From positions 1 through 64,000 of the forward strand of contig JAUYMY010000007.1 in NCBI GenBank assembly GCA_030699385.1: 64,000 bases of DNA, in the 5' to 3' direction. Of the stretch, positions 30,830-35,967 are shown in pieces (the first letter of the stretch is position 1; every line of letters starts with the position of its first letter). The notes under the pieces were generated by a model. It was not told the DNA's origin and made no database searches. It worked only from the letters and a program-made list of their open reading frames with translations. This stretch comes from Methylobacter sp. (GTDB lineage Bacteria; Pseudomonadota; Gammaproteobacteria; Methylococcales; Methylomonadaceae). A program made the translations under genes and the position numbers.

Positions 30830-31406
30830 AAATCATCTATTAATTATGCTCATTTTTGGCATGTCGGTTATTCCCTTTTTGATTGCCTGGGGACTAAAAG
30901 AGCATCCCCAGCTGTTAAACGGGCAAACTAATCATGGTCAGTTAATAACGCCGCCCTTGACAACCGAACGCAGTAATTTAAGCGGATTTGATTCGTTTTC
31001 GGCGGAAAATATGTCAGAACTTTCCGGGCACTGGCTGCTGGTCAATGTCATTCCCAATGCAGACTGCAATCAAGTCTGTGTTGACGCTCTGCATAAAACC
31101 AAGCAGTTGCGGCTGATGTTAAATAAGGAATTGCCCCGTACCCGTCGCATCGTCATGGTTTTAACCGAGGTTGCACCGGAAACTGCGAGCACGTGGTGGA
31201 CAGATGACAAGACTCTCATCAGGGTTAAGCCGAATGATGCCGTTATCAAGAAAATTGCCAGCATCAGACAAGGCAATATTCCAGACGGCATGCTGCTGTT
31301 AATGGATCCGTTAGGCAATGTAATGATGCAATATGAGCCGGAATTTGATCCTTACGACGTGAAAAGTGATCTGATGCACCTGTTACGAATCTCACAAATT
31401 GGATAG
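30810..31406 (+). CDS. Predicted oxidase-assembly protein, thioredoxin-like/Sco-like with CxxxC
   Basis: 198 aa, N-terminal TM, LSGHWLLVNVIPNADCNQVC, position between surf1 and ctaA. Confidence 0.6.
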   Translation: MHNQKNKNHLLIMLIFGMSVIPFLIAWGLKEHPQLLNGQTNHGQLITPPLTTERSNLSGFDSFSAENMSELSGHWLLVNVIPNADCNQVCVDALHKTKQLRLMLNKELPRTRRIVMVLTEVAPETASTWWTDDKTLIRVKPNDAVIKKIASIRQGNIPDGMLLLMDPLGNVMMQYEPEFDPYDVKSDLMHLLRISQIG

Positions 31407-33379
31407 TGGAAAATAAAATGTTTAGAAAAATAACTCTCTTTGGCGTTGTTTTAGCCTTAATCGTTATCATCGCAGGTTCATACGTTCGCTTATCGGGTGC
31501 AGGATTCGGTTGCCCGGATTGGCCGGGCTGTTACGGGCAAGCCATCCCTTCCGATTCTGCCGACTTTACCGAGCAGGCCGCTAAGGCATTTCCTGAGCAG
31601 ATTCCAGATATTGCAAAAGCCTGGAAAGAAATGGGGCATCGCTATTTGGCTGCAACTTTGGGCCTGACTATTCTGTTATTGGCGTTGCTGTCATGGCGTC
31701 AACAACAAAATCGCTTGGCAGTCATTTCGGCGGCATTGACCTTGCTGGTTTTGGTTGTTTTGCAAGCCGCTTTAGGCATGTGGGCGGTAAAATTGCAAGT
31801 GATGCCGATTGTGGTCACGGGTCATTTATTACTTGGCATGACGACTTTTTGGTTGCTATTTTGGCTAGCTCTGCGGACAAGTCTGGCGCATTCGCCATCG
31901 CTTTCGCGTTGGAACGGCTTAACGGTGTTTGTCCGTTTTGCTATGGCAGTCCTGTTTTTAGAGATTGTGTTAGGTGGCTGGGTCAGTGCCAATTATGCCG
32001 CTTTAGCCTGTAGCGGTTTTCCGCAATGCAATGGCGTGTGGTGGCCGAAAGCCGATTATCAAGCGGCGCTGAATTTATTGAGCGGATTAAGCACCGGTTA
32101 TACCGGCGTCATCGCATTCGATGCGCAAGTTGCTGCAAATTGGCTGCATCGGGTCGGCGCTTTGGTCAGTTTTATCGTACTGACTGGCTTAATGCTAGCG
32201 GCCACCTCAGGGACTCAGCCGAAAGCGGTACGAAAAGCCGGGTTATGGTTGAGCGCGCTGTTGTTGCTACAAATCGGTTCGGCTATTATCGGCGTCAAGC
32301 TTGGCGCGCCATTATGGGCGGCAGTCGCTCATAATGCCTTTGCTGCGCTGTTAATGTTACCGCTGATTGCGATTAGTTTTTACAGTCGTCAGGCTTATGT
32401 TGAAACTTTACCGGCTGAGACGGAAGTTGTTTCGATACCGCCTGAAGTTGTTGAGCCTGAGTCGGTTTATGCGCGCCTTAAATCACAGTTAAAGCGCACC
32501 CGTTCGGGTCTTAGTGGGGTGCTGGCGCAAATTCCTATCGGTCAAAAAGAAATCGACGAGGATTTGTTGGAAGCGATTGAAGCCCAGTTATTAATGGCTG
32601 ACATAGGCGTTGATGCAACCGCGCAAATTATCAAACGTCTAACTGAAAGCGTTGAGCGGCATCAGCTTAATGATGGCGAGGCCTTAACGGCGGCATTAAA
32701 ACAAGAACTGCTGAGTATGCTGTTGCCTTGTAACCAGAATTTGCATATCCCCAAACAGGACAAACCTTTTGTAATTTTGGTTGTCGGTGTGAACGGGGCC
32801 GGTAAAACCACTACTATCGGCAAGCTGGCCAAGCGTTTGCAGACGCAAGGCCATAGCGTCATGCTGGCGGCTGGCGATACTTTTAGGGCGGCTGCGGTCG
32901 AGCAATTGCAAACTTGGGGCGAGCGCAACAACATCCATGTGGTGGCTCAGCATACCGGCGCAGATTCGGCATCGGTCATTTATGACGGCGTGCAGTCGGC
33001 GCAAGCGAAAGGCATTGATGTGCTGATTGCCGATACCGCAGGACGTTTGCAGACCAAGTCGAACCTGATGGATGAGTTGAAAAAAGTGAAACGGATTATG
33101 GGCAAACTGGATGAAACAGCGCCCCATGAAGTGCTATTAGTCTTGGATGCGGGTACCGGGCAAAATGCTTTGTCGCAGGCTAAGCTGTTTAATGAAACCG
33201 TTGCCTTGACCGGTTTGGTGTTGACCAAGCTTGATGGGACGGCAAAAGGCGGGGTGATTTTTGCGCTGGCCAAACAGTTCGGCATTCCTATTCGTTTTAT
33301 CGGCATAGGCGAAGGCATTGATGATTTGCAGGATTTTGATGCAGAAGCTTTCGTTAATGCTCTGTTTGTTAAAGATTAA
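31406..33379 (+). CDS. Fusion protein: heme A synthase (CtaA/COX15) + SRP receptor FtsY NG domain
   Basis: N-half: CPDWPGC, EMGHRYLA, VVTGHLLLGM, CSGFPQC, WLHRVGA, AVAHNAF. C-half: VVGVNGAGKTTTIGKLAKRL, AAGDTFRAAAVEQL, IADTAGRLQT, LTKLDGTAKGG. One uninterrupted frame. Confidence 0.95.
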   Translation: MENKMFRKITLFGVVLALIVIIAGSYVRLSGAGFGCPDWPGCYGQAIPSDSADFTEQAAKAFPEQIPDIAKAWKEMGHRYLAATLGLTILLLALLSWRQQQNRLAVISAALTLLVLVVLQAALGMWAVKLQVMPIVVTGHLLLGMTTFWLLFWLALRTSLAHSPSLSRWNGLTVFVRFAMAVLFLEIVLGGWVSANYAALACSGFPQCNGVWWPKADYQAALNLLSGLSTGYTGVIAFDAQVAANWLHRVGALVSFIVLTGLMLAATSGTQPKAVRKAGLWLSALLLLQIGSAIIGVKLGAPLWAAVAHNAFAALLMLPLIAISFYSRQAYVETLPAETEVVSIPPEVVEPESVYARLKSQLKRTRSGLSGVLAQIPIGQKEIDEDLLEAIEAQLLMADIGVDATAQIIKRLTESVERHQLNDGEALTAALKQELLSMLLPCNQNLHIPKQDKPFVILVVGVNGAGKTTTIGKLAKRLQTQGHSVMLAAGDTFRAAAVEQLQTWGERNNIHVVAQHTGADSASVIYDGVQSAQAKGIDVLIADTAGRLQTKSNLMDELKKVKRIMGKLDETAPHEVLLVLDAGTGQNALSQAKLFNETVALTGLVLTKLDGTAKGGVIFALAKQFGIPIRFIGIGEGIDDLQDFDAEAFVNALFVKD

Positions 33380-33387
33380 AATAAGCT

Positions 33388-34044
33388 ATGTTACAGTTCG
33401 ATCATGTCAGTATGAGATACCCCGCAGCAGGCGATGTGTTGCGTAATGTCAGTTTTCATTTAGAACGTGGCGAAATGGCGTTTCTGACCGGACATTCAGG
33501 CGCCGGAAAAAGCACGTTATTTAAATTAATTGCGGTCATTGAGCGCTGTAGTCGGGGGCAGGTTTTATTGGATGGAGAAAATCTTAACCAAGTCAAGGAT
33601 AGACGGATTCCTTTCATACGCAGAAAAGTCGGCCTGATTTTTCAGGATTACAAGTTATTACAAGACCGCACTGTTTTTGATAACGTAGCCTTGCCCTTAG
33701 TCATAGCGGGCTATGGTCATCACGAAGTGGCGCGAAGAGTGCGGGCGGCATTGGATAAAGTCGGCCTAAAAAATAAAGAAAAAAAGTACCCCGCCGTGTT
33801 GTCTGGTGGTGAACAACAGCGAGTCGGCATCGCCAGAGCCGTGGTTAACAAGCCGCCGTTAATTGTAGCCGATGAACCTACCGGTAATCTTGATCCTGAG
33901 CTTTCAGCTGAAATTATGCATTTGTTTGAGCAGTTTCAACAAGTTGGAGTCACCGTGTTGATTGCTTCGCATGATATTTCATTGATTACGCAAATGAACC
34001 ATCGGATTTTAAAACTGGATCATGGGCAACTGGTTGCGAGTTAA
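33388..34044 (+). CDS. ftsE: Cell division ATP-binding protein FtsE
   Basis: [43 protein letters not shown]. Confidence 0.97.
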
Positions 34045-35040
34045 ATGATGAAACGCGTTAATAGAAAGGAAAATAAGCAGGAGCGTTGGCAAACTAAACG
34101 AGCTGGCGGCGATTTTGTCGATAAACTTTATGCTTATCGCAATCTTCATGCACATGCTTTGTTTTCAAGTCTAGGACGTCTGGTTGCATCACGATTTTCT
34201 TCGGCAATGACCATTGTCGTTTTGGCCATTGCCATTTCACTCTCCAGCGGATTTTATATTCTAGTGGCTAACCTTCAGCAGTTGGCAGGCAATCTGGAAG
34301 CGAGTAACCAAATTTCATTGTTTCTTAAAGATGAGGTTTCAGAGGCAAGGGCGAATAAGTTTGCCGATTCTATCAGGAAAAACCCTGATATTCAGGATGT
34401 TAAACTGATTACCAAGGAGCAGGCGCTGGCAGAATTTCAAGCGTACAGCGGCTTTTCCGAAGCGGTCAAGGCATTGAAAAAAAACCCGTTACCCGCCGTG
34501 ATTCAAGTGTTGCCGAAAAACGCATTTGAAAATGAGCAAGCATTAGAGGTTTTACTGGATGATTTTAAGCGCACCGCAGAAGTTGATTTTGCCCAAATGG
34601 ATATGCAATGGGTTAAGCGCTTACAGTCCATTATGGAATTGGCGCGGCGCGGCGTTACTTTATTAAGCCTGTTGCTGGGTATTGGCGTGTTATTTATTAC
34701 CGCGAATACCATACGCTTGGAATTGCATAACCGCCGAGATGAAGTGGTTATCGCTAAATTAGTCGGTGCGACGAATGGCTTTATTTGCCGGCCATTTTTA
34801 TACAGCGGTTTTTGGATTGGTTTTTTCTCTGGTGTGATGGCGTGGTTTATTGTCACAATCATCATGTTGTTTTTGAAACAATCTGTCGAAAATCTGTCCA
34901 GACTTTATGATGACAGCTTTCATTTGCTGTTTTTGGGATTTGCCGAAACGTTGTCATTATTGTTTATTTCCTCTGTGCTGGGAATTTTGGGGTCGTGGAT
35001 AGTGCTCCATTTCCAGTTGCGACAATTAAAACCCGAGTAG
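34045..35040 (+). CDS. ftsX: Cell division protein FtsX
   Basis: Four-TM permease, FtsX extracellular domain, follows ftsE. Confidence 0.95.
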   Translation: MMKRVNRKENKQERWQTKRAGGDFVDKLYAYRNLHAHALFSSLGRLVASRFSSAMTIVVLAIAISLSSGFYILVANLQQLAGNLEASNQISLFLKDEVSEARANKFADSIRKNPDIQDVKLITKEQALAEFQAYSGFSEAVKALKKNPLPAVIQVLPKNAFENEQALEVLLDDFKRTAEVDFAQMDMQWVKRLQSIMELARRGVTLLSLLLGIGVLFITANTIRLELHNRRDEVVIAKLVGATNGFICRPFLYSGFWIGFFSGVMAWFIVTIIMLFLKQSVENLSRLYDDSFHLLFLGFAETLSLLFISSVLGILGSWIVLHFQLRQLKPE

Positions 35041-35048
35041 AAAAACTA

Positions 35049-35075
35049 TTAGCACTCTTGTTTGTAGAGTGCTAG
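35049..35075. promoter_or_regulatory. CIRCE element (HrcA operator)
   Basis: TTAGCACTC-N9(ttgtttgta)-GAGTGCTAG; matches TTAGCACTC-N9-GAGTGCTAA at 17/18 positions, 34 bp before rpoH start. Confidence 0.9.
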
Positions 35076-35109
35076 AATCCGAAAAAAACTTCAACAAGGG
35101 GAATCTTCA

Positions 35110-35967
35110 ATGAGTAATGCCTTAGCTTTACCTGTTAATTTATCGGTCGGAACATTTGATGCTTATTTAAATGTCGTCAGGCAAATGCCTAAGTTGACAA
35201 TAGAACAGGAACGCGAATTAGCCTTAAAGTTCAGAGATAGCGGCGATTTAGAAGCGGCCCGCGAATTGGTGATGACTAATTTACGTTTTGTTATTCACGT
35301 TGCCAGAGGCTACAGTGGCTATGGATTGTCCATGCCGGACATTATTCAGGAAGGTAATATTGGCCTGATGAAAGCCGTTAAGCGTTTTGACCCCGATGTT
35401 GGGGTACGTTTGGTTTCTTTCGCGGTACACTGGATTAAGGCCGAAATTCACGAGTATGTGATTAAAAATTGGGGCATCGTCAAAGTTGCCACCACCAAGG
35501 CGCAACGTAAATTGTTTTTTAATTTGCGTAAATCAAAACAGGGCTTAGGCTGGTTATCTAATGACGAGGCTGAAGCGATTGCCAAAGATCTGGATGTCGA
35601 TGTCAGTGCTGTTTATGAAATGGAAAAACGCTTGGGCAGCCGGGATTTATCGTTTGATATGCCGGTTGATGAAGTTGCCGAAGAAACCTACACCGCGCCG
35701 GCCAGCTATCTTCATCAGCATGGCACCGATCCTGCGGTACTGCTGGAAAATTCAGATTGGGTCGGTCATGAGCAGGATTTATTGGCGGACGCCATGGCTG
35801 AGTTAGACGAACGTAGCCTGGATATTCTGTCAAGCCGCTGGTTAGCGGATGAAAAAGCGACATTGCATGAACTTGCTGAACGTTATAGCGTGTCTGCTGA
35901 AAGAATCAGGCAATTGGAGCAAAATGCGATGAAAAAGTTGCGGGCGGCGGTTGAACTGGCCGCTTGA
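35110..35967 (+). CDS. rpoH: RNA polymerase sigma-32 factor RpoH
   Basis: TNLRFVIHVARGYSGYGL, DIIQEGNIGLMKAVKRFDP, RYSVSAERIRQLEQNAMKKLR. Confidence 0.97.
   Translation: MSNALALPVNLSVGTFDAYLNVVRQMPKLTIEQERELALKFRDSGDLEAARELVMTNLRFVIHVARGYSGYGLSMPDIIQEGNIGLMKAVKRFDPDVGVRLVSFAVHWIKAEIHEYVIKNWGIVKVATTKAQRKLFFNLRKSKQGLGWLSNDEAEAIAKDLDVDVSAVYEMEKRLGSRDLSFDMPVDEVAEETYTAPASYLHQHGTDPAVLLENSDWVGHEQDLLADAMAELDERSLDILSSRWLADEKATLHELAERYSVSAERIRQLEQNAMKKLRAAVELAA

Follow-up and report, generated by a model that had tools for sequence, protein, structure and literature searches.

The analysed window, a stretch of 64,000 nucleotides from the methane-oxidising bacterium Methylobacter sp., contains a ctaA-ftsY fusion followed on the + strand by ftsE (33388..34044), ftsX (34045..35040, with its stop codon at 35038-35040) and, in the same direction, rpoH (35110..35967). 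The 285-aa product of rpoH scored 389 bits against the RpoH equivalog model TIGR02392, for which the cut-off is 323, and is therefore a member of this family of heat-shock sigma factors. The nearest named relative is Methylobacter sp. C17, whose RpoH is 99% identical. A ribosome binding site, AAGGGGA (35096..35102, + strand), was recognized from its sequence and coincides with a G-rich column of the alignment. As ftsX ends at 35040 and the ATG of rpoH starts at 35110, the two genes are separated by 69 bp, in agreement with a preliminary description of this DNA.

Upstream of ftsE, one 657-aa open reading frame (31406-33379, + strand) encodes a heme A synthase domain (COX15/CtaA; residues 9-318) fused to the whole of FtsY, the signal-recognition-particle receptor (residues about 379-654). 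We observed this fusion in six of the eight families sampled in the order, and it is split in f7 and f8; being common to six families, it is not an assembly error. In one of these six families the fusion appeared as two adjacent matches on the same contig, within a single open frame.

Between ftsX and rpoH, 8 bp after the end of ftsX, lies a CIRCE operator, the predicted binding site of HrcA (35049..35075, + strand). It is composed of TTAGCACTC TTGTTTGTA GAGTGCTAG, the full sequence being TTAGCACTCTTGTTTGTAGAGTGCTAG, and it agrees with the consensus inverted repeat TTAGCACTC-N9-GAGTGCTAA at 17 of 18 positions, the lone mismatch being A27 to G. The claim of a near-perfect CIRCE is thus confirmed, all the more since this is the sole CIRCE-like site of the window at up to 3 mismatches, and the mean of shuffled sequences gives a chance expectation of about 0.01 such sites per window. 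The one mismatch could be taken as the sign of a chance palindrome or of a functionless relic. We regard such an origin as extremely improbable, given this expectation and the fact that the site is kept in nearly all relatives, far beyond chance; in addition, G27 is found in about a third of 133 aligned sites and leaves a valid -10 hexamer (TAGAAT, see below).

hrcA and the conservation of the rpoH operator

The proposal that HrcA controls rpoH had been made to depend beforehand on the existence of an hrcA gene in the genome. This gene was found at C40:33141-33863, with both the DNA-binding and the C-terminal Pfam domains. The preliminary description had also called for a search for other CIRCE sites, and when up to 3 mismatches are allowed, the 3.57 Mb genome contains three CIRCE-like sites in all; besides the one at rpoH, they lie at the classical targets groESL (perfect) and hrcA-grpE-dnaK (2 mismatches). 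With the same threshold, a reversed control pattern gave zero matches across the 3.57 Mb genome. By its operator sequence and spacing, by the presence of hrcA and by the position of the other two sites, the system resembles the HrcA/CIRCE regulon of the Bacillus subtilis type. It differs from the classical regulon in having rpoH as a target and in the location of the operator, which covers the -35/-10 region here but follows closely on the -10 in the classical case.

Two observations concern hrcA itself. At L003 1501-1527, a GTG in the hrcA frame falls within the 3' arm of the CIRCE that precedes hrcA and yields the longest open reading frame; the true start is probably further downstream, GTGAGTAATACG. 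The match of this HrcA to the C-terminal domain is about 20 residues longer than in most relatives.

The site before rpoH is strongly conserved. A CIRCE with up to 3 mismatches precedes rpoH in all 80 named Methylococcales loci (28 of them perfect), and in 79 of the 80 it lies 29-38 bp before the start codon; at these 80 loci the reversed control motif always had at least 5 mismatches. In a sample of 100 genomes of the order, where sites were counted up to a distance of about 130 bp from the start of the RpoH profile, CIRCE was present at rpoH in 87 of 90 HrcA-positive genomes versus 2 of 10 without detected hrcA (Fisher 4e-8), and in a class sample of 60 gammaproteobacterial genomes, with sites counted within 400 bp and genomes taken as HrcA-less when the hrcA search gave no match, it was present in 45/48 versus 2/12 (Fisher 2e-7); because the genomes are related, both Fisher values overstate independence and serve only as a guide. 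The losses in the order sample cluster in a few lineages. The HrcA-less genomes of the class sample are spread over 11 families. Both states occur within family f20, where G147 has hrcA and the site and G299 has neither. Three HrcA-positive class genomes are devoid of an rpoH CIRCE (G248, G285 and G311), and three genomes keep it without detected hrcA (G134, G063 and G234), the assemblies of G063 and G234 being incomplete or fragmented. In the HrcA-positive genome G024 (L093), 210 bp separate the upstream CIRCE from the start of the RpoH profile, compared with the usual distance of about 75 bp, which suggests an insertion between the operator and rpoH.

The operator is therefore kept in nearly all genomes that have HrcA and has mostly decayed in those that do not, and this comparison strongly indicates that HrcA reads this site. 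The predicted control of rpoH by HrcA is supported by this co-occurrence in both samples. Among 20 genomes from other classes of the phylum, 17 of them HrcA-positive, we did not detect any rpoH CIRCE with up to 3 mismatches, and a single site with 4 mismatches was found; the predicted rpoH operator is thus, as far as sampled, a trait of the Gammaproteobacteria within the phylum. The pattern extends through the class and is no local novelty; the proposed link between HrcA and rpoH holds up in the comparison of genomes. These distributions suggest that the CIRCE-rpoH wiring is the usual one in HrcA-positive gammaproteobacteria, that it is probably ancestral, and that it was lost together with HrcA in E. 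coli and other lineages.

This link also has a precedent, which amends the first description of it: in 2004, a CIRCE was predicted before rpoH in Geobacter sulfurreducens, at position -51 (Table 8 of PMC545781), in a study that gives groESL as the only constant HrcA target (PMC545781). It is the only precedent that we found in the literature searched. The operator and the gene are the same in both cases, but that prediction concerns a single deltaproteobacterial species, whereas the pattern described here extends through the Gammaproteobacteria, tends to be lost along with hrcA and includes a defined overlap with the promoter. For the class-wide pattern and the overlap, no description was found in the literature searched; an earlier prediction in a single gammaproteobacterium is possible.

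Predicted promoter elements within the operator

A -35-like hexamer, TTAGCA (35049..35054, + strand), which matches TTGACA at four of six positions, lies inside the CIRCE 5' arm. After an 18-nt spacer, it is followed by an extended -10, TGC-TAGAAT (35070..35078, + strand). The first bases of the latter belong to the operator, whose 3' arm supplies TGCTA of TGCTAGAAT, with AAT just outside. A neutral promoter scan of the window picked exactly this combination, TTAGCA-N18-TAGAAT with TG. The 9/12 consensus match corresponds to a sigma-70 promoter of the extended -10 type, predicted from the consensus match only, and its strength is uncertain since the -35 is weak. Transcription of rpoH would start at about 35085 (+ strand), some 7 nt past the -10, so that the leader would measure about 25 nt. 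Immediately before CIRCE, an A-rich block, AAAAACTA (35041..35048, + strand; family consensus AAAATTA), occupies the position expected of a proximal UP element and may function as such.

The alignment of 133 sites showed a conserved AAAATTA just upstream of the operator and a conserved A-A-T just downstream of it. The last three operator bases together with this A-A-T form TARAAT, preceded by TG, that is to say an extended -10. The T at the third base after CIRCE is found at 80 of 90 rpoH sites in the order and at 43 of 47 in the class (background 21%, p 2e-25 for the latter), and at 5 of 15 groES or hrcA CIRCE sites, which follow TTGACA-type promoters. As the T of the -10 is conserved at rpoH but not at groES/hrcA sites, the rpoH operator appears to lie inside the promoter. 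CIRCE is expected at, or just after, the promoter of a heat-shock gene, and here it overlaps the predicted -10. On this point the earlier HrcA-rpoH proposal stands in an amended form: the operator would overlap the promoter itself, which gives a mechanism.

On the reverse strand (35074-35041, -), the CIRCE stem followed by ATAGTTTTTC resembles an intrinsic terminator, whose T-run is the conserved A-rich block. Such an element might stop antisense transcription, but a role of the block as a sense-strand UP element is likelier.

The arms are also able to form a 9-bp RNA stem. This, together with the terminator-like appearance of the reverse strand, raises the question of whether the palindrome could act as an RNA hairpin that attenuates or protects the ftsEX-rpoH message, and not as an HrcA operator. 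We rejected this as very unlikely: the sequence of the arms is conserved beyond mere pairing, the gain in folding over shuffled sequences is only moderate (z -1.6), the stem is not followed by a T-run on the sense strand, and the site tracks the presence of hrcA.

In most other gammaproteobacteria sampled, the same DNA contains a second type of promoter. GAACTT is found 16-17 nt before CIRCE position 8, and TC-TNA, made up of the end of the 5' arm and the beginning of the loop, provides the -10 of a sigma-E promoter, GAACTT-N16-TCTNA. With at least 5/6 matches, GAACTT occurs at that spacing at 32 of 47 class sites and 50 of 90 order sites, and almost never at other nearby spacings. The loop contains TNA in 51 of 92 sites with GAACTT versus 15 of 89 without it, as expected if sigma-E reads the loop. 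In a few genomes, the sigma-E-like promoter is found not at this place but some 15 bp farther upstream. In HrcA-less genomes such as G044, G056 and G072, GAACTT-N16-TCTTA is kept and the operator arms have decayed. The sigma-E promoter in the CIRCE DNA is probably older than the extended -10.

E. coli has the same ftsX-rpoH neighbourhood, and upstream of its rpoH we observed GAACTT-N16-TCTGA, the pattern that overlaps CIRCE in many HrcA-positive gammaproteobacteria; we take this sigma-E promoter to be P3. E. coli differs from the window by the absence of hrcA (the control of our search) and of a CIRCE before rpoH, and by an ftsX-rpoH gap of 244 bp; conversely, it is the window that lacks the sigma-E -35. 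Despite the frequency of the pattern in the order and in the class, and its occurrence in E. coli, it is very unlikely that the promoter under the CIRCE of the window is a sigma-E (envelope stress) promoter. At the -35 position the window has CGAGTA, a 2/6 match overlapping the ftsX stop codon, and GAACTT is present in none of the seven genomes of the same genus in the order sample. We therefore rejected a sigma-E promoter in the window; GAACTT has been lost in the genus as well as in the window, which leaves only HrcA and the extended -10.

Taken together, these comparisons lead us to lean, with some reserve, towards an ancestral gammaproteobacterial rpoH promoter that was three-in-one: an HrcA operator, whose 5' arm served as the -10 for sigma-E and whose 3' arm served as the -10 for sigma-70. 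Envelope stress or growth would bring about transcription of rpoH only when permitted by HrcA. In E. coli and its relatives, sigma-E would have been kept and the gate lost with hrcA, and Methylobacter would have kept the gate and lost sigma-E.

Proposed control of rpoH by HrcA

As judged from sequence and its conservation, the rpoH CIRCE very probably functions as an HrcA operator, through which a promoter serving rpoH specifically is repressed. Since operator and promoter share one stretch of DNA, an HrcA dimer sitting at 35049-35075 would mask the -35/-10 region and keep RNA polymerase out. By analogy with HrcA from other bacteria, HrcA would leave its three operators when misfolded protein draws GroE away, or when heat inactivates HrcA directly. 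In Campylobacter jejuni, GroE enhances HrcA binding, and both a titration model and direct heat sensing by HrcA have been discussed (PMC8533110). Upon release, groESL, hrcA-grpE-dnaK and rpoH would all be induced at once, and the newly made sigma-32 would then activate the remaining heat-shock genes, in a repressor-to-sigma cascade. Once GroE has recovered, HrcA would shut rpoH off again. A basal level of rpoH would come from ftsEX read-through, which could lessen the effect of repression.

In E. coli, a translational thermosensor and the turnover of sigma-32 dominate the regulation of rpoH. It is accordingly possible, though we consider it rather improbable, that HrcA binds here but only fine-tunes a gene mainly regulated by other means, namely such a thermosensor and the turnover of sigma-32 by DnaK, GroEL and FtsH. 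Over its first 275 nt, the predicted rpoH mRNA does fold somewhat better than shuffles (z -1.8, 5/200). However, a region of 116 nt comprising the leader and the start region shows no unusual structure (z 0.1), and the conservation of the operator is strong and class-wide. A strong thermosensor in the leader was rejected on the value for the 116-nt region; one within the 275-nt region, which beats the shuffles only slightly, is possible.

Textbooks describe two separate strategies of heat-shock control, one based on a repressor and CIRCE, the other, that of E. coli, on sigma-32. In contrast to this split, the arrangement described here would place the repressor above the gene of the sigma factor across the HrcA-positive gammaproteobacteria. 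As the pattern holds throughout these bacteria, the layout of E. coli looks derived, with one layer removed. The lineages that have lost hrcA thereby offer a natural experiment, in which the operator decays and the underlying promoter remains.
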